36,525 nucleotides of DNA from positions 1-36,525 of IMG/VR virus record IMGVR_UViG_3300037297_000047, one strand, 5' to 3'. The position numbers and the translations under genes were made by a program. Below the pieces are notes generated by a model that searched no databases, was not told where the DNA came from, and saw only the letters and a list, made by a program, of their open reading frames with translations. Of the stretch, positions 9,764 through 36,377 are shown piece after piece. Positions within the stretch are counted from its first letter, which is position 1. Each line of letters starts with the position of its first letter. The DNA comes from a virus.

Positions 9764-10657
9764 TTAATTTCCTAAATATGTAGCTGTAAACCCGGCAAAA
9801 GATGGTTGAGTAGATGTTGCAGCCGATCCGTGAACTCTGACAATATCACCTTTTGACAAATATCCTTCCCAGTCTGGAGCAGGTATAGAATTTGCAATAA
9901 TCGAATAATTTATATTTAATCTGTCGGATGGCGTTATCAGCCTGATATTTGTTGTTAACTGAGGAGAATTTAAACTAAATCCTAAATAACCTGCATTTTC
10001 ACAACAAGCAGAAAAAGAATATTTACCGTTTCTATTTATTAAAATTTCTAACCCTTCCGTATTTCCGTTATATAATGGGTGATTGTGAGAAAACATATTT
10101 CCGAAATCTTCATCAATATTTGTAAATCTCATAATATTTGAATCTATACTCCCATAACCCGCCCAAGTATTCAGTCGCAACTGACAACTTATTTTTTCTT
10201 CGGTGATAACCCATTCCGGCGTTGTACCTATTATTTTTAACCTGTCTTCTCCTTTCGGCAATTCTATTTGAGATAAATTCCCAATGGTTTCTGCTCCTTC
10301 TCCGTCTATTGTCAAAAGATTGCCGCCTGTTTGGTGGTAAAATTCTAGCTCTCTATTTTGGTTGTCTGCAAGTGTTGGCAAGGTTATTGTTATGTCACCA
10401 CTGCTGGTATCACAAATATATTTCCCAAATCCGTCACCGTCTGAGATAGTGTAAGGTGAATCTGCACTTGTGAGATATTTAATGCTTGTACCTGTAAAAC
10501 TTAAATTATTTTGCATATAAGTCAATAAATCTGAATGGGATGCTTTTTTAATCTTTTTGTCTGTTCCGCTTAAATCTGCCGAATCTCCTAGCAAATATAA
10601 ATCAGCTCCGACCAAAGTTGTTTTTGCTGGCTTATCGTCTATTTTAAATCCTGCCAT
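9764..10657 (-). CDS. Receptor-binding tail protein with C1q-like tip domain
   Basis: 297 residues. A short N-terminal attachment part (about 1-60), a beta-strand domain typical of tail fibres (residues 60-155: GKYICDTSSGDITITLPTLA, NLLTIDGE) and a C-terminal C1q/TNF-like domain (about 160-297) with GYGSIDS, GKYSFSA, GFSLNS and GDIVRVHG. Such domains form trimeric knobs that contact the host surface. The last protein of the tail module, so the best candidate for host recognition. The C-terminal domain has a stand-alone copy at 31549-31938. Confidence 0.7.
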   Translation of the reverse strand: MAGFKIDDKPAKTTLVGADLYLLGDSADLSGTDKKIKKASHSDLLTYMQNNLSFTGTSIKYLTSADSPYTISDGDGFGKYICDTSSGDITITLPTLADNQNRELEFYHQTGGNLLTIDGEGAETIGNLSQIELPKGEDRLKIIGTTPEWVITEEKISCQLRLNTWAGYGSIDSNIMRFTNIDEDFGNMFSHNHPLYNGNTEGLEILINRNGKYSFSACCENAGYLGFSLNSPQLTTNIRLITPSDRLNINYSIIANSIPAPDWEGYLSKGDIVRVHGSAATSTQPSFAGFTATYLGN

Positions 10658-10666
10658 GTTTTGCTC

Positions 10667-12475
10667 CTAAGTTATAATTTCTTCTATCCAGTTGTTGTTG
10701 TCTTCATCATTAAAATATATATTTGATTCATCCCAAAACGAATTAACTTCAATTGTTGGGATCGTATAGGGTTTGACAAATCTCATTGAAAGTTTTATTG
10801 TGAAATTTTCTAAATTTTTCGTAACGCCTAATACTTCATAAATACCAAAATTACCCGATGTAGAACTAATTCTATCTGTAGGATTTGCTATGATAAAATC
10901 TGTTGGTTCTATATTGACGTAAGACCAATTTGTTGTTCGCTCAATAATATCGTCTATCTCTGAAGACAATTCCATTATTGTTTCTGATTTGTCGATAGCG
11001 TCTGCTAAAGTAGTTAACTCGGTGTCAAATGTTTCGGTTTTATATTGTTTGTATCTGTCAAAAGCTACATCTCTGAAGTCTACATTCTCATAATATACCC
11101 TTGTATCTTCGTCTATATTATGATTATAACCTATCCTTACACTTGTTAAATATTGAGATCCATTATTCACGATTGCAGGGTCATCAATCCAGTCATCTTT
11201 TAAAATTGTGTAATCGGGGTTTCTGTTTTCATCATATAGCCTAGCAGTATAAAGCCCGTTGTCCTTAACAAAAAACCTTATATCACAATCATTAGCAACT
11301 GACTCTATAGCATCAGACAATTTTACACTTGAATCGTCTATATATAAGCTTGTGTCTCTTGCGCTTGATGCTGCTAAATTCATTTCGTCTACGTCAAAAA
11401 AAGAGTCTAAAAATGGCTTTGTATCATAATTTAACATTAAATCTTTTAATATCTCGACACCGTTTTTTATATCTACAGTAAAATCAATTTTGACCTCGTC
11501 GAAATCTCCTCCAACATCACCAGACGTAAGATTAAAAGTACCTAATATTAAATTAGTGCTTGCAGGGGTTTTTGCGACTCCATTGACTCTTACCTCTTGA
11601 ATTGATCCAACAAAGTTATTAGAAGTATCCGCAAACAAAAACGTATATTCAGAAGGGCTTGTTTCTTCTTCATTTAAGCAATAACTAGGTGCGTTTAATA
11701 TCTTGCCATATGCAACAGGCTTTGCTTGATCATTATTGTTGTCATTCAAAAAAGGATAATCTAAGGTGCTTAGCAAATTAGTAGAAACCCCTTGCGTTAG
11801 GCCTTTTCTCGGATCTTGTATCGTCAAATCAAACTCTGCCCAAGTTCTTTTGTCATTTTCGATAAAACCAGTATAAACATCATCAAAGTCTTGGTATCCG
11901 TCACCCACATCGCCTACTTTAATCCGGCTCGACATCGCAAATAAGTTTCTTGTTCTCCAGTCGTCAAATTCACCATCATTATTAGCAAATTTTACTGAAC
12001 CTGATTGATATTTTAATAAACCATAAAAAAGCGGATCAATGGACTTTTTAAGATTAAAAATGCTGGTTACTCTAGGCTCATAATACTGGTTGTTGTAATA
12101 ATTGCTTGTGTTTGTTTTGTAAGAATAACCTACAGCAACGCCAATGACCAAATCGTTTGAAAGTACTGGCTCAAAATCTTCTAAATGAATATAAACTTTT
12201 GTTGTGTCGGTATCATAATAAAAACTATTATCAGTCAATTTGCAGTCGCTTATACTAAACGTTTGAGCCAAAGAAATATCTCTATATCTAAAAGAACTTA
12301 CATTATATATTTGTTCATTATTCCAATCGTAGAAACCCTGATTCCCGTAGTCATCAGTTAAAGCTAAAACGCTTGGAGTCAATGTCCAAAACCAGACACC
12401 AGCCTCATAATTTAGCATGTTTCTTAAATCAAGAGGTATATCGTATTCGAAAAGTATTATTTTATTTGTTGCCAT
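10667..12475 (-). CDS. Central tail hub / tail-tip protein
   Basis: 602 residues, starting at the ATG overlapping the upstream stop (TAATG). The order baseplate-hub-like N-terminus, repeated beta domains (FEYDIPLDLRNML, LLKYQSGSVKFANNDGEFD, VYTGFIENDK) and a late domain with strands like VTSVRIGYN resembles tail-hub proteins that sit at the tail tip of siphoviruses. Position between distal tail proteins and the receptor-binding protein supports this. No hydrolase motif seen. Confidence 0.65.
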   Translation of the reverse strand: MATNKIILFEYDIPLDLRNMLNYEAGVWFWTLTPSVLALTDDYGNQGFYDWNNEQIYNVSSFRYRDISLAQTFSISDCKLTDNSFYYDTDTTKVYIHLEDFEPVLSNDLVIGVAVGYSYKTNTSNYYNNQYYEPRVTSIFNLKKSIDPLFYGLLKYQSGSVKFANNDGEFDDWRTRNLFAMSSRIKVGDVGDGYQDFDDVYTGFIENDKRTWAEFDLTIQDPRKGLTQGVSTNLLSTLDYPFLNDNNNDQAKPVAYGKILNAPSYCLNEEETSPSEYTFLFADTSNNFVGSIQEVRVNGVAKTPASTNLILGTFNLTSGDVGGDFDEVKIDFTVDIKNGVEILKDLMLNYDTKPFLDSFFDVDEMNLAASSARDTSLYIDDSSVKLSDAIESVANDCDIRFFVKDNGLYTARLYDENRNPDYTILKDDWIDDPAIVNNGSQYLTSVRIGYNHNIDEDTRVYYENVDFRDVAFDRYKQYKTETFDTELTTLADAIDKSETIMELSSEIDDIIERTTNWSYVNIEPTDFIIANPTDRISSTSGNFGIYEVLGVTKNLENFTIKLSMRFVKPYTIPTIEVNSFWDESNIYFNDEDNNNWIEEIIT

Positions 12476-13554
12476 TAACAAAACCTTGCAATAATCATAG
12501 ATGCAAATGTAGATCCTGATCCCCCACTTGGAGATATTTCCATATCTATTAAATCACCTTTTTCAAGATAAATACAGCCGCTGGTATAGCTTATTTGAGC
12601 AGCCCCTGCTGTATAGGAAATCCCCAAAAGAACATTAGATATATTTCTTGCTCCATTAACTCTAAAATAGTGAGTTGAAGCAGTAGTTCCTCCTGTAGAA
12701 CTTCTCATACTCACATGATATAACCCTGTAACAGGTATTAAAACATCTCCTCCGCTTAATTGGAAATTAAAGCTTGTGTTGTTGGTATCAAAAGACAGTG
12801 AAGGAAATACACTACTTCCGCTATGGGCTTGATTGCCTTCTACATGCGCTATATATTTTTTGTTGTAATCATCAGACCAATTTTTATAAAGTTGCCTTTT
12901 ATCTGTGTAACTAGCAGTTGACTTTTCCATGCTGGCAATATGCCTATAATTAGCTAAAGCGCCTGATCCGTAATATCCTTGTTTTGAGTCAGACCAAACA
13001 GGAGCGGTCGCAGTAAATGCAGCAGATAAAGACCCTCCGACAATAGTTATTGCTGTCGCACTGGCTGGGATTGCCTGTTGTAATCCGGGGGACGCTATAG
13101 TAATTGTCCCACCGTTGCTTACATCTCCATCACCTGAAGTTATAGTATACTTGTTAATATCCCCAGCAAATTGAATTATGTCTCCTGCCAATATATCCCC
13201 TGTCCCTGCACTGGCCAAAGTAATACTTGTCGCGCCTATATTATACCCTGTGGCATCTGTAGTAGCTCCAGAAGCTGACCCAGATTGAGGAACTAGACAA
13301 AGATAAATTTCGCCGTCTGCCACCGTAGTACTTGTAACTGGGTCTGTAGTACTTATACTTTCATTTGAATCAAACTTATACAGCGCCCCGTTATTTTCAA
13401 CCCAACTACCCGCCGCTATCTCTGGTACTGTAGTAGTAAGCATTTCAGTTAAAGTGATTGACCCTTCTCCTTTAAATGCTTTATCTAGGGTCAACATTAT
13501 ATTGTCAAGGTTTGCGTCCCCTATTGCGTAATCACTAACAATTGTTCCTGCCAT
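12475..13554 (-). CDS. Tail-tip protein carrying a coat-protein insertion domain and a C1q-like domain
   Basis: 359 residues. The N-terminus (1-90) is a small attachment part. Residues about 92-172 are nearly the same as residues 226-303 of the major coat protein (shared GATTDATGY, SITLASAGTG, ILAGD, FAGD, SATAIT), about three quarters identical by eye. The C-terminal part (about 240-359) is C1q/TNF-like (VLIPVTGLYHVSMRS, FRVNGARN, YLEKGDLIDMEI). The coat domain in a tail protein is unusual. Start after GGAGGCCAGATAA. Confidence 0.65.
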   Translation of the reverse strand: MAGTIVSDYAIGDANLDNIMLTLDKAFKGEGSITLTEMLTTTVPEIAAGSWVENNGALYKFDSNESISTTDPVTSTTVADGEIYLCLVPQSGSASGATTDATGYNIGATSITLASAGTGDILAGDIIQFAGDINKYTITSGDGDVSNGGTITIASPGLQQAIPASATAITIVGGSLSAAFTATAPVWSDSKQGYYGSGALANYRHIASMEKSTASYTDKRQLYKNWSDDYNKKYIAHVEGNQAHSGSSVFPSLSFDTNNTSFNFQLSGGDVLIPVTGLYHVSMRSSTGGTTASTHYFRVNGARNISNVLLGISYTAGAAQISYTSGCIYLEKGDLIDMEISPSGGSGSTFASMIIARFC

Positions 13555-14304
13555 TTATCTGGCCTCCTCTGTTTCTAAACCTATAGTCCACAAATTACCA
13601 TTATGCGGTAATTGTGAATATTCAAAATTAGCCACCAAATTCGAATAAAGAGGTGGGTATTTGTCTAAATCATTTTCCCAGTATAATAAATAAAAAGGAA
13701 TAACTTGATCTACATAATCAAAAAAATTATTAAACTCTAATTTTTCGGCATAAGTTATGCTTGGGAAAGTAAATCTTCTTTGTCTTAGCTGAACACGTCT
13801 ATCACCATACAGTTGCCCACCTACAGACTTTTGAATCTCTGCATTAGAATTTATAGCAAATGTAGGATCAGGACTAGAACCAGGGCAAACGAATTTTTCT
13901 CCTAAAAAGATCTTTGATATTTCAATATATCCATCTGTGTTTGTCGGGTCTTGGACTGTAATTCTCCAATATTGATAACTTTGTTTTGTAGAAAAACCAT
14001 AAATCCAATTACCGTTTAAATAAGTTAAAGCTTGGTCAACAGGTGGAGTTGTCCAACTGTCCGTTGTATTTGCCTGGACTTTAACTGTTGCTGAACTTGT
14101 TATATTATTAAATACTAAATAAACATAATCTACATCAATTGCAGACGCATAATCAAATTGAAGATATTCTGAACTAACATCAATAAATCTTCCTAGCCTT
14201 GTTGTCCTTGTATCTAATAAAGCATCTGACCACGTATAATAAGGATTCTCTGATGACGAAGTTATAGTAGCATTGTTTATTTGGTTATCATATAGTATTA
14301 TCAT
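13555..14304 (-). CDS. Distal tail protein (Dit-like position)
   Basis: 249 residues. A beta-sandwich N-terminal part that looks like a carbohydrate-binding/discoidin fold (YYTWSDALLDTRTTRLGRFI, YVYLVFNN, YWRITVQDP) and a C-terminal domain (KLEFNNFFDYVDQVIPFYLL). Immediately after the tape measure, as distal tail proteins are. The assignment rests on gene order. Confidence 0.55.
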   Translation of the reverse strand: MIILYDNQINNATITSSSENPYYTWSDALLDTRTTRLGRFIDVSSEYLQFDYASAIDVDYVYLVFNNITSSATVKVQANTTDSWTTPPVDQALTYLNGNWIYGFSTKQSYQYWRITVQDPTNTDGYIEISKIFLGEKFVCPGSSPDPTFAINSNAEIQKSVGGQLYGDRRVQLRQRRFTFPSITYAEKLEFNNFFDYVDQVIPFYLLYWENDLDKYPPLYSNLVANFEYSQLPHNGNLWTIGLETEEAR

Positions 14305-14307
14305 ATA

Positions 14308-16644
14308 TTACCTCGTCACTATAGCTCTTTCAGGAACAAAAAGCTCTCCATTCTGCATAGCTCTGAACAATTCATCAAAAGTGGCTTCTCTTGTGCCGAT
14401 TACTTTAAAAACTCTTTCACCGCCCCTTCCTTGACCATTGGCCATATTAAACAATTCTGCTTGTTGTTGCTGATTTAGCACCATTTCACCGGAATTAACT
14501 CTTGCCTCAACACTATCACCAGCAAATCTACTCCCCGGGACAATCCCCCCAAATTGGAATTTAGGCTTAACAGGTTTTGCTTGTACTACTGCGGCGTATT
14601 GTATCCCTGCGGTTACTGCTGCTAAAGCCGCGTTTATAGGTGCTAAAATCATGTTTAAAGGCCAAGGAGCTGCCAAAGAAGAAACATAAGCGTTTAATGG
14701 TGCTGCCGCTAAGTTAATTGCTGCTAAAGCTTTTTGTATTTCCCAACTAGCCAAAGATGCCTGATATTCTGTTTCAGCTCTTTTCTTGGCAAATTTCTCT
14801 TCAATCTGCGCTTTCTTAAGGGCGTTTCTTGCCTCTACTTTTTCTTCTTCTGTCCCTGTTTGCTCTGCAAGTTCTAATTCTCTCTCTGCTCTTTGGATTG
14901 CTGTTTCTTCTGCAAGTCCTGCTGCTTCAAGTTCTCTTTGTTCTTGAGCATCTATGCTTTGTAGCCTGTTCTCGGCCTGCACCTGCTGTAGCTGATCTAT
15001 AGCTTGTAGTGCACCAATAATTCCGCTAGTAGCTACTTGATATGTGACTTGAATGTCCCTGATGTTTTTGCTTATTTCTGAAAAGGTTTTAAAAGATTCA
15101 AATGAAGCATTATCTAAAGCTGCAACAAACCCAGATTGAGCGGCGATAAGCTTGTCGTATTCTTTTCTTAGTTCTGATGTTTTAGCTATTTGATCTTCTT
15201 GTTGCTCTATAGCTTTTTTAGTTGTCTCTTGTACTTTTTTTTGTGGTTCAACTAAAGCTTTGTTTAAGCGATCTCTAAGGTTATCTTGTTTTTTCCCAAA
15301 ATTATCGACTTCTTCGCCTATGGTCTTGTATAGATTCCGAGCGTCTTTTACGGCGTCTGAACCAAATTTAGAAAAAGAATTTCTTGCGACATCAACAGAT
15401 TTTTGCAGGTCTGACCATGATTTTTCACCGGATAAAGTCTCATAAAAAGTGCCTATTATTTTTGCACTATCAATTATAGACCTTACAAAATTCTTTATCG
15501 CGTTAATCCCTCCGGCAATTGATAAAGATAAAGCTTTAAAGACAATTGCTGTGCCTTGCACTGCCGTAGCCAATATGCCTAGTCCGTCCGTTGCCTCTTC
15601 AGAATTTTCTTTTATACCTAGTAATTCTTTGACAAAAGTGCTAATATCAGTTGCTATATCACCTATAGAATCAGCAAAGGAAACAGCGCTAGTTTTTAAA
15701 ATATCTAACAATCTGGCAGCCTCTGCTAAAGCTTCGTCAAAAGTCCCTTCAAAAGCTGTTGAAGCTTCTTCTCCAACACGAATCAAAGCGTCTGCATACT
15801 CGCCAAGCGTTTTGATAGCCGCATCTGTAGACTTTTGGAAATCAAATAATGCTTCGTTCCAATCATTATATAGCGTCAATGCCTCTGTCGCTATAGGAAG
15901 GAGTTTAGCTCCCTGATAATCTGTGAAATCTCTATTTATTTTGTCAGCTCTTCTTAGCTGGAATGCATACGTGTCAGTATTTCGAGCAACATCTCCAACA
16001 GCATCAGCCGCTTGTTTTTGCGCCAACTGGAGTCTAAGGAATGCCTTCTCGTTAATAGTCAGCTCTTTAAAAACTTCGCCTTGTTGTTCTGCGAACTGTC
16101 TTAGCTGTGTTTCCCCCAATGCAAGCCCCAAGCTTTTTGCTGCTTCAGTTTCTCCTAAGAGCGCACTAGTAAGAGCCTTACTTGCTCCGGTTGTACCACC
16201 TGAAAAGTTAGTGAAAGAAACCAAATCCGCTGCCAATGTCTGCACCTGGAAAGATAAATCTAAAGCTTGATCTCGAGCAACTCCAAAACCAACTAATAAA
16301 TCTCCAGTAGCGGCTAAAAGGTCTTTTGATTCAGTTGTAGCAATATTGTAATCTCTTGCTAATACGTCAGCTAGTTGATTAGCCTCGTCTATTACTGTTC
16401 TAAATACTACACCAAATTTATTAGATGTCTCTTCAGCTTCGCTTGCTGCGTTTATAGTTTCTTTGGCTATATTTTTAAGTGCTTTAACGCCATTAACTGC
16501 AAGACCTACAAGAAAAGCTTTTTCGAGAAATTGGACACTTTTGGCTGTCTTCTGAGTATTCTTGTCTATTTCATTAAGAGACTTCTTAGCAGCAGTGGCA
16601 TCTCCTGTTATTTTCCAGACTAGCTCTCCGATTACATTAGCCAT
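14308..16644 (-). CDS. Tail tape measure protein
   Basis: 778 residues, long and alpha-helical, starting right after the chaperone frameshift extension (TAAATG). N-terminal helices (VWKITGDATAAKKSLNEIDK), a hydrophobic centre (AALAAVTAGIQYAAVVQA), an 80-residue glutamine/glutamate-rich coiled coil and a C-terminal FGGIVPGSRFAGDSVEARVN segment, common near tape-measure ends. At about 0.15 nm per residue it predicts a tail near 115 nm. No lysozyme or peptidase domain seen. Confidence 0.9.
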   Translation of the reverse strand: MANVIGELVWKITGDATAAKKSLNEIDKNTQKTAKSVQFLEKAFLVGLAVNGVKALKNIAKETINAASEAEETSNKFGVVFRTVIDEANQLADVLARDYNIATTESKDLLAATGDLLVGFGVARDQALDLSFQVQTLAADLVSFTNFSGGTTGASKALTSALLGETEAAKSLGLALGETQLRQFAEQQGEVFKELTINEKAFLRLQLAQKQAADAVGDVARNTDTYAFQLRRADKINRDFTDYQGAKLLPIATEALTLYNDWNEALFDFQKSTDAAIKTLGEYADALIRVGEEASTAFEGTFDEALAEAARLLDILKTSAVSFADSIGDIATDISTFVKELLGIKENSEEATDGLGILATAVQGTAIVFKALSLSIAGGINAIKNFVRSIIDSAKIIGTFYETLSGEKSWSDLQKSVDVARNSFSKFGSDAVKDARNLYKTIGEEVDNFGKKQDNLRDRLNKALVEPQKKVQETTKKAIEQQEDQIAKTSELRKEYDKLIAAQSGFVAALDNASFESFKTFSEISKNIRDIQVTYQVATSGIIGALQAIDQLQQVQAENRLQSIDAQEQRELEAAGLAEETAIQRAERELELAEQTGTEEEKVEARNALKKAQIEEKFAKKRAETEYQASLASWEIQKALAAINLAAAPLNAYVSSLAAPWPLNMILAPINAALAAVTAGIQYAAVVQAKPVKPKFQFGGIVPGSRFAGDSVEARVNSGEMVLNQQQQAELFNMANGQGRGGERVFKVIGTREATFDELFRAMQNGELFVPERAIVTR

Positions 16645-19006: not shown

Positions 19007-19349
19007 TTTTAAACCTCTTTAGTGGTATAGATATGATTTTATTTTGTCCGGCTACATTGTCTACATATACCACACTGTAATCTTGATTGTTTATGGTGCA
19101 CTTTGCATCTTCATTTATTGTTGTTGTATAGTCATCGGGGTCTATTATAACCACCCCTGTAACCTCTGCTCTATGCTGCTCAGAAATAAGCCTGTCAACT
19201 GAAGAGCCAGTCCAATAAATACCCTGGACTGATAGAGTCGCAGAAGCAGGAAATGTCTTTGTAACAATTCCGTTTGTAAATGTCGTTTCTACATTCCTAA
19301 ATTCTACTGTTATAGATTCGTTGCTTTGAAATAGCTCTTTAACAAACAT
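18999..19349 (-). CDS. Head closure / head-tail connector protein
   Basis: 116 residues from the ATG overlapping the adaptor stop (TGATG), with AAAGGG upstream. Beta-rich (ESITVEFRN, ATLSVQGIYW, AEVTGVVIIDPDDYT, YSVVYVDNVAG). The sequence and position between adaptor and gp10-like protein fit gp16-type stopper proteins that close the packaged head. Confidence 0.65.
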   Translation of the reverse strand: MFVKELFQSNESITVEFRNVETTFTNGIVTKTFPASATLSVQGIYWTGSSVDRLISEQHRAEVTGVVIIDPDDYTTTINEDAKCTINNQDYSVVYVDNVAGQNKIISIPLKRFKSV

Positions 19350-21316
19350 CAATTTACCCTTTGCATTTTTACACCTTGTATGATGTAATATTTAAGATAA
19401 TTGTCGACTGCTGAATATGTTTTAGCACCTGCTGGTCCTGAATATGTTTTGCTAACAGGACCGTATGATTCGCTTTTTACGTTTGTTATAATTTCTTGTA
19501 AAGTTCCGTTTTGCACTTGTGCTGCCAAGTAACAAGCGGCGTCAATAATATCTTCCGGGATAACATCGTCTTCAATTTCAATTCCATCTTTATCAATAAC
19601 ACCGTAGCGAGGCCATTTTAAAGCTTGGTCTTCGTCAACCCTGCTTCCTTCGAAATTATAGTTTAAATCTATATATTCAGTAGCTTTGTTTAACCATTGT
19701 TTTATTTCTGTTGTACTGTTTGAAGAATAGTCCGTACCTCTGTTTAACCAATATTGCACAAACTGTGATGTTGTTGCATAGCTAGTTGAGTCTGGTTTTG
19801 CTGTACCGTCCTCTACAACAAAGTCTATAGAAAAGTACTTATATATTATGCTTGTTAAAAGAGGAGTTGTTGAACCATCCGAACTATGCAAAAATCCTAA
19901 AAGATTATACGCATTTTCTTCGGAATTATTTAATTCTGTTATGTTTGCAATTACATCGCTTGATATATTAGACTGCGCATATGATTGATCAGAAGTAATC
20001 CACTCCGTGCCACTCCAATATAAATAATCACTGTTTTGTTTTACTACATACCTTATTAAGTCACTACCTGTTATTGTTTCCGTAAAAGCTATAGACAATA
20101 ATTCATCCGCTGAGAGATCCTCAGCCAAAGAAAAAATAGGGTTATTTGTAGGGTATATTTGCGCAGTCAAAGAAGCAGTTAATTGATCAACCGAGCTTTG
20201 CACATTAGTATCGCCAAAAATAACTTTGAATTGCCCGTATATCTCACCACTTACACTTAAAGAACCCACATTCGCATTAAACGTAGCAACATCATTTGCT
20301 TGTTCGTATGTGTCGTTGCTAGCAACCCAAGCCGAACCATTCCAATATAAGTAAACACCACTTTGCCCTATCTGTAAAGTATAGCGTGGAGATCCCCCCT
20401 CGGTTGTAGTAAAAGCATCAAAACTAATCAAAGTCCCTGCGCCTGTATATTCCATTTCTGGAACAATTACCACTGATTCTAAATAAGCGGCGTTAGGGAT
20501 AGTATATGCTGTTGTCTGTGCAGCAGTTGAATAAAGAATTAAATCTCTAAAAGACCCGTCTGCTATATTGTATAAATTACTATAAGCGCCCAAATGTACC
20601 AAATTTGAAGTAGTTCCTTGCCACGGAGATATAGCTTGAGTTGCGCCTAATTGCACTCCATCTATATACAAAGAAACCTGGTTGCTTATGCAAATAATTT
20701 CAAACACGTATTCTTGGCCAGCTGTAGGTGTCCACACGCCAAAAGTTACCGCCGCCAACCCATTTGCAGTAATTCTCAAAGTATTTCCAGAAGGACTATT
20801 AAATATAACAACTTGGTCAGTAGACCCGGTGGCTTGGGACAACGCAAAAATGTTTACATTCGCAGCTGGGGTTGTAGTATAATTAGGTGTATATTTAAAT
20901 TTTGCGACCCAGTTGCCAGACAAAGCCCCTATCAATGAATCGTCCCAGTAGAGACCTTGAGTCCCGCTACAAAAAAGCTTACCTCCGCTTATAATTGGAG
21001 ACCCATTTAAAGTAGCAGTTAAATCTGTAAATCCTATAGCCCCCCAGTTTAAGTCAGTAACAGAGGACAATTGAGACCCACATATAGAATTAGCTGGTCT
21101 TTTGTCTATCTGATTAACCGTACCCCCCGAAAACTGAGCAAGAGTACTATCGTAAATAAATCCCGTGTCGTTATCAAAATTCTGAATAAAATCTTGTCCA
21201 GGATTGTCTACAAGCTTTAAACCTAAATCACTATCAAATTGTATATAATTTGAATCAAAAATAAAATCTGACTCTTGGTTATATGTTCTTGTTGATGCAA
21301 AGTCTATTCTTGCCAT
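19349..21316 (-). CDS. LamG-like surface domain fused to head-tail adaptor
   Basis: 655 residues. The C-terminal ~150 residues (WLNKATEYIDLNYNFEGSRV, ALKWPR, DVIPEDIIDAACYLAAQVQNG) are the DnaT-like head-tail adaptor fold found at the neck of many siphoviruses. The N-terminal ~270 residues include a concanavalin/LamG-like sandwich (GGKLFCSGTQGLYWDDS, WVAKFKYTP, NQVSLYIDGVQLG, FRDLILYS). Two YLYWxGxxW repeats lie between. The adaptor alone is usually about 150-200 residues, so about 500 have been added, probably displayed at the neck. One uninterrupted frame. Confidence 0.65.
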   Translation of the reverse strand: MARIDFASTRTYNQESDFIFDSNYIQFDSDLGLKLVDNPGQDFIQNFDNDTGFIYDSTLAQFSGGTVNQIDKRPANSICGSQLSSVTDLNWGAIGFTDLTATLNGSPIISGGKLFCSGTQGLYWDDSLIGALSGNWVAKFKYTPNYTTTPAANVNIFALSQATGSTDQVVIFNSPSGNTLRITANGLAAVTFGVWTPTAGQEYVFEIICISNQVSLYIDGVQLGATQAISPWQGTTSNLVHLGAYSNLYNIADGSFRDLILYSTAAQTTAYTIPNAAYLESVVIVPEMEYTGAGTLISFDAFTTTEGGSPRYTLQIGQSGVYLYWNGSAWVASNDTYEQANDVATFNANVGSLSVSGEIYGQFKVIFGDTNVQSSVDQLTASLTAQIYPTNNPIFSLAEDLSADELLSIAFTETITGSDLIRYVVKQNSDYLYWSGTEWITSDQSYAQSNISSDVIANITELNNSEENAYNLLGFLHSSDGSTTPLLTSIIYKYFSIDFVVEDGTAKPDSTSYATTSQFVQYWLNRGTDYSSNSTTEIKQWLNKATEYIDLNYNFEGSRVDEDQALKWPRYGVIDKDGIEIEDDVIPEDIIDAACYLAAQVQNGTLQEIITNVKSESYGPVSKTYSGPAGAKTYSAVDNYLKYYIIQGVKMQRVN

Positions 21317-21327
21317 TTATAACCCCA

Positions 21328-21879
21328 TCACACATGTTTCTTTTCACTAAAATTAAATGATACTGTACATCTTGCCGTATTAGTTGTATCATTGTTTACA
21401 ATCTTAAACATGTATGTAATATTTTTATCTGCTATAAAAGGTAAATCGTCTTTAGCTTCTCCACCTAGCACAGAAACGGCAGCAATTCCATTGGAAAACA
21501 CTTCCCATTCTGGAGCAAGCTTTGTACCTTCCGCAGTCACAGATGTATTAAAATATATCTTTGTTTTAGCTATTTCTATATCAGTATTACATCTATCTAT
21601 CGTGTCCCATTCTGTACCAGCTATATATGTGGGATTAGCATGAAGATCTATATTTATAGTACCAGCCCCAAAAGCTTTAAAAACTACAGGTAAAAAAATC
21701 AATTTTTCGCACTCTATATTACTAGGGTCTATGATAATATATCTCGTTGCATTGTTAGGGACTTGAAATCTTTTTGACATTCCATACATATTGTGTATAC
21801 ACACATCATTATTATAGGTGTCTTCTGTTACAACCGCGCCTAGCTCTCCAACATATCCTATTATTGATTTTTTAGACAT
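21328..21879 (-). CDS. Virion structural protein (head/neck region)
   Basis: 183 residues, beta-rich, start after AGAAGGTATATA. The C-terminal RCTVSFNFSEKKHV resembles the end of the neighbouring upstream protein (TFNAFWYEEVEGI), suggesting paired related subunits, for example head fibres or decoration. Function by position only. Confidence 0.55.
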   Translation of the reverse strand: MSKKSIIGYVGELGAVVTEDTYNNDVCIHNMYGMSKRFQVPNNATRYIIIDPSNIECEKLIFLPVVFKAFGAGTINIDLHANPTYIAGTEWDTIDRCNTDIEIAKTKIYFNTSVTAEGTKLAPEWEVFSNGIAAVSVLGGEAKDDLPFIADKNITYMFKIVNNDTTNTARCTVSFNFSEKKHV

Positions 21880-22439
21880 TATATACCTTCTACTTCTTCA
21901 TACCAGAAGGCGTTGAATGTAACAGATGTCGCAGCAGCAGGAGTAAAAGCAAAAACATAATCAGTTGAAGGTTTTAATATTATTTCGTCATTACCCCCAG
22001 AACCTGAACCTCCTGATCGGGCAGCGGGACTCCCAGCTGAACCATAGCGGGCAACATCCAAAATTAAAGGAGTTCCCAGCACAGGAGTTGTCCCGGAAAG
22101 AATAGTAGCTCCACTAGTCTTGCTGGAATTTCTATTACGATTAAAAGGAGTATAAGCAGTGCCCCCAGAATAACTTGTCACATCTTCATAAAAAACATAC
22201 TCAACAGCGGCAGTGTCAGTTGATACGTTTGTTGATCCAGGTCTAAAATGCAGATATCCAGAACTTGAAGCAGGGGTTGTTAATCCTATATATGTCGCAA
22301 CACTAATTATTCTTAAATCTATTGCCATAGTAAACCCTATGCCCGCATGAATATAAGCATGGTCGGTCTGTATAACAGCAGGGAACTTAGTAAAACTTTC
22401 AGAATTACTTATTATGCTTTTTTGATAATTCGTAGCCAT
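21879..22439 (-). CDS. Virion structural protein (possible head decoration)
   Basis: 186 residues, glycine/serine-rich with a run ARSGGSGSGGND and beta strands. Likely a beta-sandwich surface protein. It lies between the capsid module and the neck genes. Start after AAAGAGGTATATT. Confidence 0.55.
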   Translation of the reverse strand: MATNYQKSIISNSESFTKFPAVIQTDHAYIHAGIGFTMAIDLRIISVATYIGLTTPASSSGYLHFRPGSTNVSTDTAAVEYVFYEDVTSYSGGTAYTPFNRNRNSSKTSGATILSGTTPVLGTPLILDVARYGSAGSPAARSGGSGSGGNDEIILKPSTDYVFAFTPAAATSVTFNAFWYEEVEGI

Positions 22440-22910: not shown

Positions 22911-24062
22911 CTATCCTAGCAAGATAGCTGTATGTTCAGGCTTAATAAGTTTGGTTCCCCAAGCTATTCTAACATGTAAAGAATTTTGCAAGAACTGTTT
23001 GTATTGTGCTACTTCAAAAGATAAGCCAGTGTTAGGGTCTGTTAAGATCTCAGTAGCTGTTGCTAAGTCTCCTCCGATAGGCTGAGCAGGCATCCTTGTT
23101 GCCAGATGAATTGCAGTACGGTGAAATCCAATATTAGCAGTATAATCACTAGAAACCGTGATAGCAGTAGCACTTGTCGGAATTGCTTGTCTTAATCCAG
23201 GTGCTGCAATAACTATAGTTCCGCCACCTGAAACATCTGCATCACCAGTAACAACTAAATACTTATTTGTGTCACCAGCAAAAGTAATAACATCGCCCGC
23301 TAGAATTGTTCCTGTCCCCGCACTAGCAAGTGTAATTGAGGTAGTTCCTACTGCATAACCAGTCGCGTCAGTAGTCGCACCAGCAGCAGTTCCCGCAGTG
23401 TGTGACTGCACTTGAGCTGATTCTCTAATATCAAGACCACTAAGAGGCAATAGCACACCTTGTCTTAATGTCGCATCTGTCCCGGCAGTGTTTTGCTGGT
23501 TAAGTGTTGTTAAATCTCTCAGGTTAACTCCTGCTGTTGTGTCGACCACAAGATGCCTGTCACCTAGTGGAGTCCCGTTATCTGTCAGTATCTTTGCTAT
23601 TTGATTTGCATCACTAATACTTGTTGCAAATGGTGTAGTCCCAGCTGTTCCGAATGCCCTTGAAGACAAGAGATACTCTTGCGCTATATCTGCTTCAATT
23701 TCATTTACTAAAGTTCTGATCGCTTGAGCAGTTTGCTGTGCTAACGTAGAACTGTATAATCCATTGTTAGAATATCCTTGTGTTTGCTCTCCATTCCATC
23801 GAATAGGAACGTGCCTAGATTTGTCGATAGTGATTGTAGTATTATCGATTGTTTGGTCACCTGTGTCAGGTGGTGTTACCGCTGGTGTGTTGTCTGCTGC
23901 CGATTGTGGTTGTGTCTGAGGGATTCTTACAACCTCATTTAGTGCTGCTCTTTCTACTGTGTTATCTGTAGACACAGAAGGGATAAATCCTGTAATCTCC
24001 CTACTTACTACGTCCAAACCCTCATATAAATCAGGGATTAAATCTGTCAATGTGTTTGCCAT
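22911..24062 (-). CDS. Major capsid protein, P22 coat-like
   Basis: 383 residues. The start MANTLTDLIPDLYEGLDVVS with REITGFIPSV and VERAALNEVVR, then TPAVTPPDTGDQ and WNGEQTQGY, is the well-known P22-like coat pattern; the end (LAWG-like RIAWGTKLIKPEHTAILLG) also matches. Residues 226-303 are the inserted barrel domain (SITLASAGTGTILAGDVI ... FAGDTNKYLV). Follows the scaffold gene; start after AGGAGACATAATAAA. Confidence 0.9.
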   Translation of the reverse strand: MANTLTDLIPDLYEGLDVVSREITGFIPSVSTDNTVERAALNEVVRIPQTQPQSAADNTPAVTPPDTGDQTIDNTTITIDKSRHVPIRWNGEQTQGYSNNGLYSSTLAQQTAQAIRTLVNEIEADIAQEYLLSSRAFGTAGTTPFATSISDANQIAKILTDNGTPLGDRHLVVDTTAGVNLRDLTTLNQQNTAGTDATLRQGVLLPLSGLDIRESAQVQSHTAGTAAGATTDATGYAVGTTSITLASAGTGTILAGDVITFAGDTNKYLVVTGDADVSGGGTIVIAAPGLRQAIPTSATAITVSSDYTANIGFHRTAIHLATRMPAQPIGGDLATATEILTDPNTGLSFEVAQYKQFLQNSLHVRIAWGTKLIKPEHTAILLG

Positions 24063-24083: not shown

Positions 24084-24800
24084 TTAGTCGACAATAGACA
24101 GTTCATTTGCAGAGACCTTTTTGGCCATTTGAACTTTTTCAGCAGGTGGGAGTTTATCAAACTCAGCCTTTTTCATCGTTCTACTACCGCCTTGCGAAAA
24201 ACCCCTACTATTAGCACCGCTATTGTCTGGTTTTATCAAGTACTCCTTACCCTGGTCACTTTCTGCCCATTTCTGGAAATACTCTTTAGCTGGTAGTCCT
24301 AGACCATCGCCATTTTGGATGACAACTTGCCTTTCCTTGCCATCTACCTCAACAATGGCTTTGCCTTTGTACGCTGAGGATAATAATTCTTTATGTTTAG
24401 GATCAACTTTTATCTGATCGAATACTTTAGATAGGCTAGAGCTGATTAAATTATCGTTGAGATCCCTTTCTAATGCTTTATAGCTTTCTTCTTTCTCCTT
24501 GAGAGCTTCCTTTATTCTAGTCAATTCCCTATCTGATTTGTCGCTTTTATCTTTACCGCTAGAACTTTTAGAAACATAATCATTGTATCCGTTGATATCA
24601 ATATTGTCAAGCTGTTTTTGAACTTCTTCTTTCTCTGTTTTGATTGTTTTAAGCTTCCCTAATAATTCATAGTTTTTGTTCTTTAAGCCCTGAATATCAT
24701 CTTCTGTTTTATAACCATAAGCTCTTGCAACTTCATCAAACAAACCCTTATTGTTCTCATCCTGTATGAATTCTTTAAATTCTTCTTCCGTAATCGCCAT
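24084..24800 (-). CDS. Scaffold protein
   Basis: 238 residues, almost all helix and strongly charged: EEFKEFIQDENNKGLFDEVA, a coiled-coil middle (LKTIKTEKEEVQKQLDNIDI) and a basic end (RTMKKAEFDKLPPAEKVQMA). Right before the coat gene, as scaffolds are. Start after AGGAGGCCATTAG. Confidence 0.8.
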   Translation of the reverse strand: MAITEEEFKEFIQDENNKGLFDEVARAYGYKTEDDIQGLKNKNYELLGKLKTIKTEKEEVQKQLDNIDINGYNDYVSKSSSGKDKSDKSDRELTRIKEALKEKEESYKALERDLNDNLISSSLSKVFDQIKVDPKHKELLSSAYKGKAIVEVDGKERQVVIQNGDGLGLPAKEYFQKWAESDQGKEYLIKPDNSGANSRGFSQGGSRTMKKAEFDKLPPAEKVQMAKKVSANELSIVD

Positions 24801-31034: not shown

Positions 31035-31552
31035 GATTTAACTCCAAACAAAAACTTAAGGTCTTTCTCCCCTATTTCTTCAAGAGCTACTTTAATAAAA
31101 TCTCTATTGAAACAATATACTTTACATTGTTTTTCTATAGAGTTATAATCTTGCCCGAAACATTTGCATGAGTAATCATAAAAGATATACCATTTTTTCT
31201 CATATCGTGACTTCCAATCAATCTCAATACCTCCATTGAGCCTTAAAGCTATGTCTTTTAGTTGTTGTTCTAGTTTTATTCTTTTCCCGTAGTCAAGAGC
31301 TTCTTGCTTTGTTTTAAAATAATTTCCTAAATTATAAAGATTATCGTCAAAATCGTCTCTATCATCAAAGTCGTCTATAGCATCCTTTCTTTCATTAAAA
31401 TCGCACCAGATCCAAGAAAAATAATAATATATCCCCCCTTTTTCAGCACGCCATCTAACATTCTTGCTTTCTTCTTGCCCTATATACTTTTTTAGTTCTT
31501 TAATCGTCTGCTCTGCTTCTTTAATTTTACTTAGTGCTTGTTCTTTGTTCAT
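31031..31552 (-). CDS. Conserved phage hypothetical protein, 173 aa
   Basis: An N-terminal coiled coil (EAEQTIKELKKYIGQEE), then RWRAEKGGIYYYFSWIW and LGNYFKTKQEALDYGKRIKL, which I recognise as a widespread phage/prophage domain of unknown function. The second half is mixed with a late IEKQCKVYCFNRDFIKVALE segment. Start after AAGAGGGAAAAT. Confidence 0.65.
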   Translation of the reverse strand: MNKEQALSKIKEAEQTIKELKKYIGQEESKNVRWRAEKGGIYYYFSWIWCDFNERKDAIDDFDDRDDFDDNLYNLGNYFKTKQEALDYGKRIKLEQQLKDIALRLNGGIEIDWKSRYEKKWYIFYDYSCKCFGQDYNSIEKQCKVYCFNRDFIKVALEEIGEKDLKFLFGVKS

Positions 31553-31938
31553 ATTTTCCCTCTTTTGTCATCTTCTATTCTTATTTTCACATCTCCGTAT
31601 AGCAAACCGCAACCATGAACCCTTATCACATCTCCAGGGACAAATTTTTCCAAAAAAGTCACCAACGCCAAATCGCTTGTGATATATAAAAGTTCAGTTA
31701 GAGGTATATATTCAATATCTGTTAATAAATTCTTAGAATTAAGACTTAAACCAATGCTTTTTTTATTTTCTGTTTTTCTGATCTTGAACCTCAAAGAACA
31801 TGGTTGTTTAACAATAATCTGAGTACCACATTCATTTGTTGAATTTATCTCAATGCAATCTTTTTTCTTCAAGTCTGTTTCTATGTTGCAATCAGGTATT
31901 TTCACTATTTTTGAATCTATTGTGCCATATCCTACCAT
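31549..31938 (-). CDS. Stand-alone C1q-like domain related to the tail receptor-binding protein
   Basis: 129 residues from the ATG after AGGTGGGAAAGTG. Matches the last ~130 residues of the receptor-binding protein at 9764-10657 block by block: GYGTIDS for GYGSIDS, IGLSLNSKNLLTDIE for LGFSLNSPQLTTNIR, PGDVIRVHG for KGDIVRVHG. It lacks the tail-attachment part. It lies among early genes 21 kb from its relative. It has extra cysteines (DC, EC, PC, GC). Could block receptors inside or outside the cell, or be a horizontally gained tip cassette. Confidence 0.65.
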   Translation of the reverse strand: MVGYGTIDSKIVKIPDCNIETDLKKKDCIEINSTNECGTQIIVKQPCSLRFKIRKTENKKSIGLSLNSKNLLTDIEYIPLTELLYITSDLALVTFLEKFVPGDVIRVHGCGLLYGDVKIRIEDDKRGKI

Positions 31939-32117
31939 CACTTTCCCACCTTTATTTTGCTGTATATTTCGTCTTTTACCATATAAAGTCTTTCAACTGC
32001 ATCCTCAAATTGCTTACTATCAATATCCACATTGGCCAAAGCTTCAAGAGCAATTGATAGCATGCTGTAATTGTATATATCATTAAACTCTTTTATATTC
32101 ATAGATTTATTTTGCAT
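31938..32117 (-). CDS. Hypothetical protein, 59 aa
   Basis: Helical acidic peptide (MLSIALEALANVDIDSKQFE, RLYMVKDEIYSKIK). Ends TGA overlapping the next ATG by 1 base. No clear ribosome site for the first ATG; the second (MNIKEF) is an alternative. A TTGACA near 32131-32136 might be a promoter. Confidence 0.5.
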   Translation of the reverse strand: MQNKSMNIKEFNDIYNYSMLSIALEALANVDIDSKQFEDAVERLYMVKDEIYSKIKVGK

Positions 32118-34571: not shown

Positions 34572-34898
34572 TTATTTAAATTCTCCTCTTTTTTTTACAA
34601 AATCTGTCAATATAATGTGAACTAGCAAATTCAAGTCTCTGATTTCTTTTTCTAACACTTCTTTTAGTTTCTTGTACAATTCTATATCCATATCGATCAA
34701 AAAAGGGTTTGCCTTGTCTATGATTATGTCTTCTTTTGTGATAGACAAACTTTTGTATTTTTGACCTTGTATATAGTCTTTGATCACATCAACACAATAT
34801 GATTTTACCGACTTGAAACAGTCAGGATAATCATTTTTGATTAGTCTTTTCAACCCGTTTTTAGTTTTGTTGCTTATCTTTATACTTGCGGTTACCAT
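34572..34898 (-). CDS. Hypothetical protein, possible ribbon-helix-helix N-terminus, 108 aa
   Basis: Start after AGAGGTAAAA. ASIKISNKTKNGLKRLIKND resembles a ribbon-helix-helix DNA-binding strand-helix; the rest is helical (YCVDVIKDYIQGQKY, ELYKKLKEVLEKEIRDLNLL). Could be a regulator. It overlaps the nuclease gene by 38 bases. Confidence 0.5.
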   Translation of the reverse strand: MVTASIKISNKTKNGLKRLIKNDYPDCFKSVKSYCVDVIKDYIQGQKYKSLSITKEDIIIDKANPFLIDMDIELYKKLKEVLEKEIRDLNLLVHIILTDFVKKRGEFK

Positions 34899-35676
34899 TT
34901 TTACCTCTTTCGGTTACATAAAATTTGTTGTATTCTTGCCACAATTGGAATGCACTCTTAAACATTCTCCACCCGTGACATAGCTCTTTGTAGCTATATT
35001 TGACAAACTTGTACTCATAATTTCTATTTATTATTATGTTATATACAGATACTGGTTTTTTTATATTTCTTTGAACTGCCTTAGCATATGCTGCTAATTG
35101 CATTATCCATTCTTTATATTTGCACATTTTTTCAAGTTCTTTGTTTTGTGTTTTGTAATCAAAAATAAAAACTCTTTCTTTTGTTTCTATCATCAGATCA
35201 ATAGTTCCAGAATAGCCACTTCCTGTTATTTGAATTTCTGTATTAAAACCATTTGCTTTCAAAGCTACAATCCCCACAAATATTTCTTTTACAAGATCAT
35301 GCCCCAGAATTAAAGATTCCCTACCTACACTATCTATTTTGGGCAACATCAAAATACTATACTCGTTATTTTTATAAAAATTTACAATATTTTCCAAATC
35401 ATTATGAATTTTGTTTCCAAAATCAACTGCAGTTGTGTTGCTTTTAAATTCATTTTTTATAGCGATCTTATAACTTTCAAAATCGCCAGTATACATGTCT
35501 ATATCGTGATTATACGCTGCTATGGACAAGTGCCTGTCTATCTTCCACTTATTCAAATATTCTTTGTTGATAATTTCAAGTATAGTAGTCACAGAAGGTA
35601 CAAGATCAAGCTTTCTTGCTTCTCTCATTCCTGCACCTTCTTGAAATATTCCTTGTTTATTATAATATCTTCCCAT
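34861..35676 (-). CDS. PD-(D/E)XK nuclease, RecB/Cas4-like exonuclease
   Basis: 271 residues, ATG overlapping the ERF stop. An early H (DFGNKIHNDLENI), then GSGYSGTIDLMIE (catalytic D), FIFDYKTQ (D-x-K) and WIMQLAAYAKAV (Q...Y). This order is the RecB-like/PDDEXK_1 phage exonuclease. Together with the ERF annealing protein it forms a lambda-Red-like recombination pair. Confidence 0.75.
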   Translation of the reverse strand: MGRYYNKQGIFQEGAGMREARKLDLVPSVTTILEIINKEYLNKWKIDRHLSIAAYNHDIDMYTGDFESYKIAIKNEFKSNTTAVDFGNKIHNDLENIVNFYKNNEYSILMLPKIDSVGRESLILGHDLVKEIFVGIVALKANGFNTEIQITGSGYSGTIDLMIETKERVFIFDYKTQNKELEKMCKYKEWIMQLAAYAKAVQRNIKKPVSVYNIIINRNYEYKFVKYSYKELCHGWRMFKSAFQLWQEYNKFYVTERGKNGNRKYKDKQQN

Positions 35677-36377
35677 TAGTATGGTATCTCATCAATTTCT
35701 TTTTGGGTAACAACTGTTCCGTTAAACTGCTCTTGTATCTTTTTTGATTCTGGAATCCCTTCACCTGCTTGTATTTGCTTTTTTCTTTCTTCAAAAATTT
35801 TGATTGCGGCGTTTCTTTGTTTTTCTGAAACAAAATGTTGTTCTAAATCACTGAAATATTTTACCATAGCTTGCTTTGTTGTCATTTTTTTTAGATTTTG
35901 TTCTACTTCATCAAAATCTATTTTTATTTTGTTATTCTTTTTTTCTGGTTGCGTGTCATCTAGTGAGAGATTGTTTGCGTCTGTATCTTCTTCACTGCTG
36001 GTATTTAAAATAGCATTTAATCCATACCTTCTTCCAAAACTCAAAAGACTACCCATCTCTTGGTTAATATTTCTACCTGGAAATTTAGCAACCATAGGTA
36101 TGTGGCTTTCTATCCATTCACCTGAAATATGATAAATTCTTGTTATTATAACGATTTTGTCTTCAAAGTGCATTGCATTATGAACAGCAAACAAATTGTG
36201 TTTTGATAAAACAGGTTTTATCTTAGATAAAGAAAAAGGCAAGCTTGCATATCCATAGGTGTAACTACCTTTTTCGCTTTTAATTGTTGCTGTTTCGTTT
36301 TTTTCAATATTTATTAGCTCTTTGTTTACCCCAAGCAAAGCTGGAATTATTTTTTCTATTGTTTCACTAGTTTTCAT
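35676..36377 (-). CDS. ERF-family single-strand annealing protein
   Basis: 233 residues, start after AGAGGTAAGTA. The N-terminal core (YASLPFSLSKIKPVLSKHNL, HISGEWIESHIPM, INQEMGSLLSFGRRYGLNAI) is the ERF superfamily signature, the single-strand annealing proteins of phage recombination. A low-complexity linker follows. The C-terminus ends EIDEIPY, resembling the DDDIPF tip of SSB, which could recruit SSB partners. Operon with the nuclease. Confidence 0.85.
   Translation of the reverse strand: MKTSETIEKIIPALLGVNKELINIEKNETATIKSEKGSYTYGYASLPFSLSKIKPVLSKHNLFAVHNAMHFEDKIVIITRIYHISGEWIESHIPMVAKFPGRNINQEMGSLLSFGRRYGLNAILNTSSEEDTDANNLSLDDTQPEKKNNKIKIDFDEVEQNLKKMTTKQAMVKYFSDLEQHFVSEKQRNAAIKIFEERKKQIQAGEGIPESKKIQEQFNGTVVTQKEIDEIPY

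Follow-up and report, generated by a model that had tools for sequence, protein, structure and literature searches.

The analysed stretch of DNA, hereafter the window, comprises the complete 36,525 bases of an IMG/VR virus record, whose gene content is that of a tailed phage. It encodes the head components terminase, portal and minor head protein, a scaffolding protein (24084–24800, minus strand; phrog_206, 2.4e-20) and a major coat protein (22911–24062, minus strand), as well as a recombination pair of an exonuclease and an Erf-like single-strand annealing protein (34861–36377, minus strand). The tail genes considered here, likewise on the minus strand, follow each other in the order tape measure protein (14308–16644; phrog_24676, 5.3e-10), one further tail protein (13555–14304), a 359-aa protein (12475–13554) with a ribosome-binding-type GAGGAGG sequence directly ahead of the ATG of its ORF, and a 604-aa tail protein (10667–12481). 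From synteny and from the tape measure context we infer that the 359-aa protein is a tail-tip protein. Its block is syntenic in a related phage (IMGVR_UViG_3300042731_005822, referred to as G001), where the neighbours on both sides are conserved with 48–66% identity, the upper value being that of the 604-aa protein. In a further record (IMGVR_UViG_3300034152_000141, referred to as L148) the same two flanking genes, 29% and, for the 604-aa protein, 30% identical, surround a homologue of the 359-aa protein which lacks the domain described below.

Elsewhere in the window, a 655-aa protein (19349–21316, minus strand) combines a C-terminal head-tail adaptor part (about residues 496–648; phrog_477, 5.1e-41; Pfam DnaT_2) with a long N-terminal extension containing a weak LamG-like stretch; its counterpart in G001 has 531 aa and is alignable over the last 295 residues only. 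Two adjacent small genes near the coat region (21328–21879 and 21879–22439, minus strand) both match phrog_5335, a family of unknown function, and are probably tandem paralogues. A 130-aa protein encoded far from the tail genes (31549–31941, minus strand) resembles residues 166–282 of a 297-aa tail-region protein (9764–10657, minus strand; 28% identity, E=1.6e-7), and neither of the two has a Pfam match.

The tail-tip protein and the coat protein share one homologous block. The best local alignment of the two proteins, a pairwise comparison which the original prediction had suggested as a check, joins residues 91–171 of the former (13042–13284) with residues 223–303 of the latter (23154–23396) and contains 60 identical residues among 81 (74%) without a gap. 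Its raw score of 313, compared to a maximum of 89 in 200 shuffles, rules out chance or low complexity as the source of the match, which is by far the strongest gene-to-gene similarity within the window. BLASTP likewise reports the block (54 of 72 residues identical, E=1e-27), and all its other segments between the two proteins are at chance level (E≥0.06), in agreement with the predicted unrelatedness of the flanking parts. The match had been anticipated by eye between residues 92–172 and 226–303 with about three quarters identity, and between nucleotides 13046–13275 and 23161–23400; both the match and the degree of identity hold, with residue ranges shifted by one to three positions and with the computed nucleotide limits given above in place of the proposed ones. 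At the DNA level, codon positions 1, 2 and 3 agree at 58, 69 and 26 of the 81 codons, which corresponds to a saturated pS of 0.82 and a pN of 0.20. The third base agrees in 19 of the 60 identical residues, while random synonymous choice predicts 23.3 ± 3.6. Saturated synonymous sites combined with a low pN indicate an old shared ancestry under strong constraint on the protein sequence, and thereby substantiate the proposed stronger divergence of the DNA relative to the protein, as well as the proposal that the sharing is old and maintained by selection.

The coat protein of the window is of the P22 type, by Pfam as well as by fold. It scores 48.2 bits against PF11651 (9.2e-13; curated cut-off 24) and matches phrog_283 at 2.9e-93; its AlphaFold2 model (pLDDT 84.9) matches the P22 coat at 1.6e-17, and the best 17 PDB matches found with Foldseek are all coats of P22, CUS-3 and Sf6. 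In gp5 of P22 and its PF11651 relatives a β-barrel, the I-domain, interrupts the same HK97 fold at an equivalent position, behind about residue 222. The block shared by the two window proteins comprises this I-domain in full, and it is modelled in the window coat with a pLDDT of about 90. The P22 I-domain comprises about 120 aa and has long D- and S-loops, whereas the corresponding site is occupied by 73–86 aa in 15 of 15 related coats, namely those of the window, of G001 and of 13 reference phages retrieved with the coat core, independently of the domain. With an overall length of 81 aa the window domain is shorter than that of P22, whose long D-loop makes contacts across the two-fold axis. 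Based on the homology to P22, the barrel is presumably exposed on the capsid of the window phage. Within one subset of coats the domain is 0.70–0.86 identical, compared to 0.41–0.54 for the coat core. The coat of G001 (L071, 9014–10186) has a strongly diverged I-domain of 86 aa which is 41% identical to that of the window coat, with 51% identity in the core; this points to a replacement of the I-domain or to an evolution separate from that of its coat. A GDxDVSxGGT loop (tail-protein residues 141–150, 13105–13134), a putative metal-ion binder, is conserved in most coat and non-coat copies; the loop is missing in one subtype represented by L003, L160 and the L014 coat. A profile of the domain retrieved nothing closer than E=0.65 from the PDB, and the PHROG family annotated as distal tail protein, phrog_1302, matches the coat domain weakly (2.9e-5).

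In the 359-aa protein the I-domain interrupts an N-terminal anchor, the first part of which covers residues 1–90 (13285–13554) and the second about residues 172–225 (12880–13041), and is followed by a C-terminal head (about residues 240–359, 12478–12837). Between the window and G001 the domain is 79% identical, the anchor (residues 1–90) 68% and the C-terminal part 36%; the domain is thus the best-conserved part of the protein, which argues against a neutral filler. The domain-less L148 anchor aligns contiguously with residues 1–90, runs straight through the insertion point and resumes behind it (score 184, shuffled maximum 60), and the C-terminus of that homologue is different, with a weak Sortilin/Vps10 match. 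Taken together, the two comparisons define the carrier as a conserved anchor with a barrel insertion that may be absent and a head that can be exchanged. The inserted barrel is predicted with a pLDDT of 82–96 and, judged by this model confidence, appears to fold autonomously. The head is probably a C1q/TNF-like jelly roll, although Pfam reports no C1q match for it: Foldseek assigns TNF/C1q with a probability of 1.00 (E about 1e-3), the underlying model being of low confidence in this region (pLDDT about 60), phmmer yields lymphotoxin-alpha at E=0.13, and the BFVD matches include C1q-domain viral proteins.

The protein also matches phrog_283 (3.7e-13), the match being confined to the I-domain positions of that family; no HK97 coat core surrounds the domain by sequence comparison, and anchor and head match other proteins. 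Together with the 60/81 match and the placement of the gene by synteny, this bears out the central claim of the original prediction, the reuse of a coat insertion domain in a tail-region protein. The 359-aa protein is known from metagenomic sequences only. A full-length query found no match in viral contigs, for which reason the domain, the N-terminus and the relatives were searched separately. Neither the window anchor nor the L148 anchor matched any of the reference phages searched, and the C-terminus returned chance-level matches only (E=0.1).

A survey of proteins carrying the domain, likewise suggested beforehand, yielded at least 217 domain-bearing ORFs, at least 209 of them P22-like coats, and a further scan 33, including 26 coats; these counts are pattern-biased and partly refer to recurring contigs, so they do not represent prevalences. 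Outside coats the domain recurs sporadically, and eight kinds of carriers were found. Beside the tail-tip protein shared by the window and G001, these are a Phage_tube_2 tail tube (L014/L015), a tail tube of the 6XGR-type NCBIfam family (L003, in LR797314), a LamG-like protein of 675 aa (L017), a 786-aa protein from a Roseobacter MAG which is tailspike-like by eye (L156), a fragment from a Rhodobacteraceae MAG (L166), 707-aa retroelement targets (L267 and L268, with a relative in L269) and, from L276, a virion-type protein of 614 aa. Phage DSL-LC06 offered a candidate whose match was too weak (E=0.3) to count as a further class. The L268 target is equipped with a 3′ variable repeat, a template repeat, Avd and a reverse transcriptase and thus belongs to a diversity-generating retroelement; it adjoins the genes for bAvd (2.3e-16) and reverse transcriptase (RVT_1, 1.2e-16), and 13 of the 15 mismatches between variable and template repeat fall on template adenines. 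Complete retroelements with target, Avd, template repeat and reverse transcriptase extend over 1711–5543 in L268 and 394–4226 in L267. Targets of such elements are a known class of receptor-binding proteins, to which the module is thereby tied.

For five non-coat carriers a relative or a family model without the domain reveals the insertion, and the sites are clean. In the L014 tube the domain sits after the sequence YGTT, and an otherwise collinear tube without domain (L278) is 80% identical elsewhere; this insertion is comparatively recent. The L017 protein has no Pfam match when intact; removal of the domain uncovers a match to Laminin_G_3 (7.8e-13), so that the fold interrupted here is LamG-like. 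Two separate stretches of the L003 tube match the 6XGR tube family, and the L268 target is collinear with L282, a homologue lacking the domain (score 219, shuffled maximum 88). The insertions are located in loops of unrelated folds. The original prediction had regarded ubiquity of the domain in both protein classes as an argument against a local transfer; the domain is present in all 15 related coats, while its non-coat occurrence is sporadic and accompanied by domain-less sister proteins, so that this objection does not apply.

The relationships among the copies point beyond a single genome. The window tail copy is closest to its counterpart in G001 (0.78) and next to coats of other phages (0.75), and the coat of its own genome ranks 11th among the 209 coats listed; seen from the window coat domain, the tail copy of the same genome ranks 122nd among the 217 copies listed. 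In G001 the tail copy shares 0.33 identity with the coat domain of the same phage, a very different I-domain (33–42%), and 0.75 with another coat. For the tube copy of L014, identity amounts to 0.52 with the coat of the same phage and to 0.73 with coats elsewhere. In the case of L003, the tube copy shares 0.81 with the L160 coat, and no non-coat copy exceeds 0.54 with it; the record of L003 itself contains the domain in the tail tube only, with no P22-like coat carrying it. Hence the predicted local transfer within the genome is not upheld. The domain tree, built on 84 columns, leaves 74 of 107 inner branches open, and the AU test does not reject a single clade of non-coat copies (p=0.35); the case for several gains is therefore founded on nearest neighbours and insertion sites and not on the tree. 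Movement between phages is needed to account for these data, and more than one gain of the domain by non-coat proteins is the simplest reading. We consider a horizontally mobile module, inserted into exposed virion proteins, as very likely the history of the domain.

Other origins have to be weighed against this history. High protein identity inside one genome would be expected if a segment of the coat gene had recently been copied into the tail gene, but the saturation of synonymous sites rules out a recent local duplication and the domain was already present in the common ancestor with G001, so that the tail copy is not a recent derivative of its own coat and this origin is extremely improbable. 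Scarcely more credible is the view that both protein classes carry the domain by common ancestry and not by transfer: its presence in all 15 related coats would fit, but sister tail-tip, tube, LamG-like and retroelement-target proteins do without it and the folds of the carriers are mutually unrelated. More serious, albeit unlikely, is an old duplication within the phage lineage, in which the coat I-domain was copied into the tail protein, vertical descent accounts for both copies, and divergence or replacement subsequently altered the coat domain of G001. In its favour, the window harbours the two copies together, and an AU test does not reject them as sisters (p=0.71). The low mutual ranks of the two window copies, the 33% identity of the tail/coat pair in G001 and the clear acquisition of the domain from outside by other carriers speak against it.

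Consistent with the preferred mobile-module history, we propose the following scenario. Recombination between phages would place the I-domain in loops at the surface of exposed virion proteins. The Erf-like annealing protein which the phage encodes is a plausible agent of such a transfer; for recombinases of this type, a part in relaxed recombination between phages has been proposed (PMC3945230). The common ancestor of the window phage and G001 would have gained the domain in the N-terminal anchor of its tail-tip protein, where purifying selection then kept it. There it would project from the tail tip and might have an accessory function in contact, adhesion or stabilisation, as thought for Ig-like domains. 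By analogy to these promiscuous domains, the module is most likely an exposed accessory domain, and the explanation as a whole, a mobile I-domain module gained by the anchor of a tail-tip protein, appears probable. An adhesive role in the tail protein is a nearly balanced matter, with the scale tipped slightly to the negative side. Somewhat less credit is given to the same mobile history with the domain acting in the tail protein as a spacer or folding aid without any binding. The P22 I-domain, with its many folding-sensitive positions, acts in assembly (PMC9965877), and the domain folds by itself in the model, which would suit such a function; the domain is, however, more conserved than anchor and head of the tail protein, many of its conserved positions are polar, and it recurs in exposed recognition-type proteins. 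A broader proposal, to be taken as tentative, views the domain as a general transferable virion-surface module contacting cell surfaces, whose conservation in coats would reflect binding as much as assembly.

The I-domain is regarded as an accessory particular to the coat which assists folding and assembly. In P22 it is located in the A-domain of the coat (PMC9965877) and has folding and assembly roles (PMC9965877, PMC5957328). Finding the same constrained sequence in tail tubes and receptor-binding proteins separates the needs of capsid assembly from a general role and makes the role of the domain testable in isolated proteins. In practice, profile searches will mislabel such tail proteins as major head protein, as PHROGs does here. 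The open-access papers searched contain no report of a P22-type I-domain in tail or receptor proteins, and the novelty is accordingly provisional. A survey of domain-level mosaicism in phages (Smug et al. 2023, PMC10684548) found it strongest in receptor-binding, baseplate and lysis proteins and mentions, in the passages searched, neither the I-domain nor a sharing between coat and tail. The closest parallel is offered by the promiscuous Ig-like domains, likewise small exposed β-domains spread over several classes of virion proteins, which have been described (Fraser et al. 2006, cited in PMC7602432) from tail fibres, the baseplate, major tail proteins, insertions in coats and decoration proteins. 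The I-domain module, found in the coat, two tail-tube families and tail-tip, LamG-like, tailspike-like and retroelement-target proteins, works as Ig-like domains do but is not an Ig domain, no Ig-family match being obtained in Pfam or PDB profile searches; unlike Ig-like domains, it sits in loops within other folds. Its documentation adds a second family to these promiscuous surface domains of phages, and its insertions can be located to the residue. The tail-tube protein of phage YSD1 (6XGR; PMC7385642), which belongs to the same NCBIfam family as the L003 tube, also has extra exposed β-domains, one of them between strands of the tube domain; those of YSD1 are Ig-like, whereas L003 carries the coat-type I-domain.
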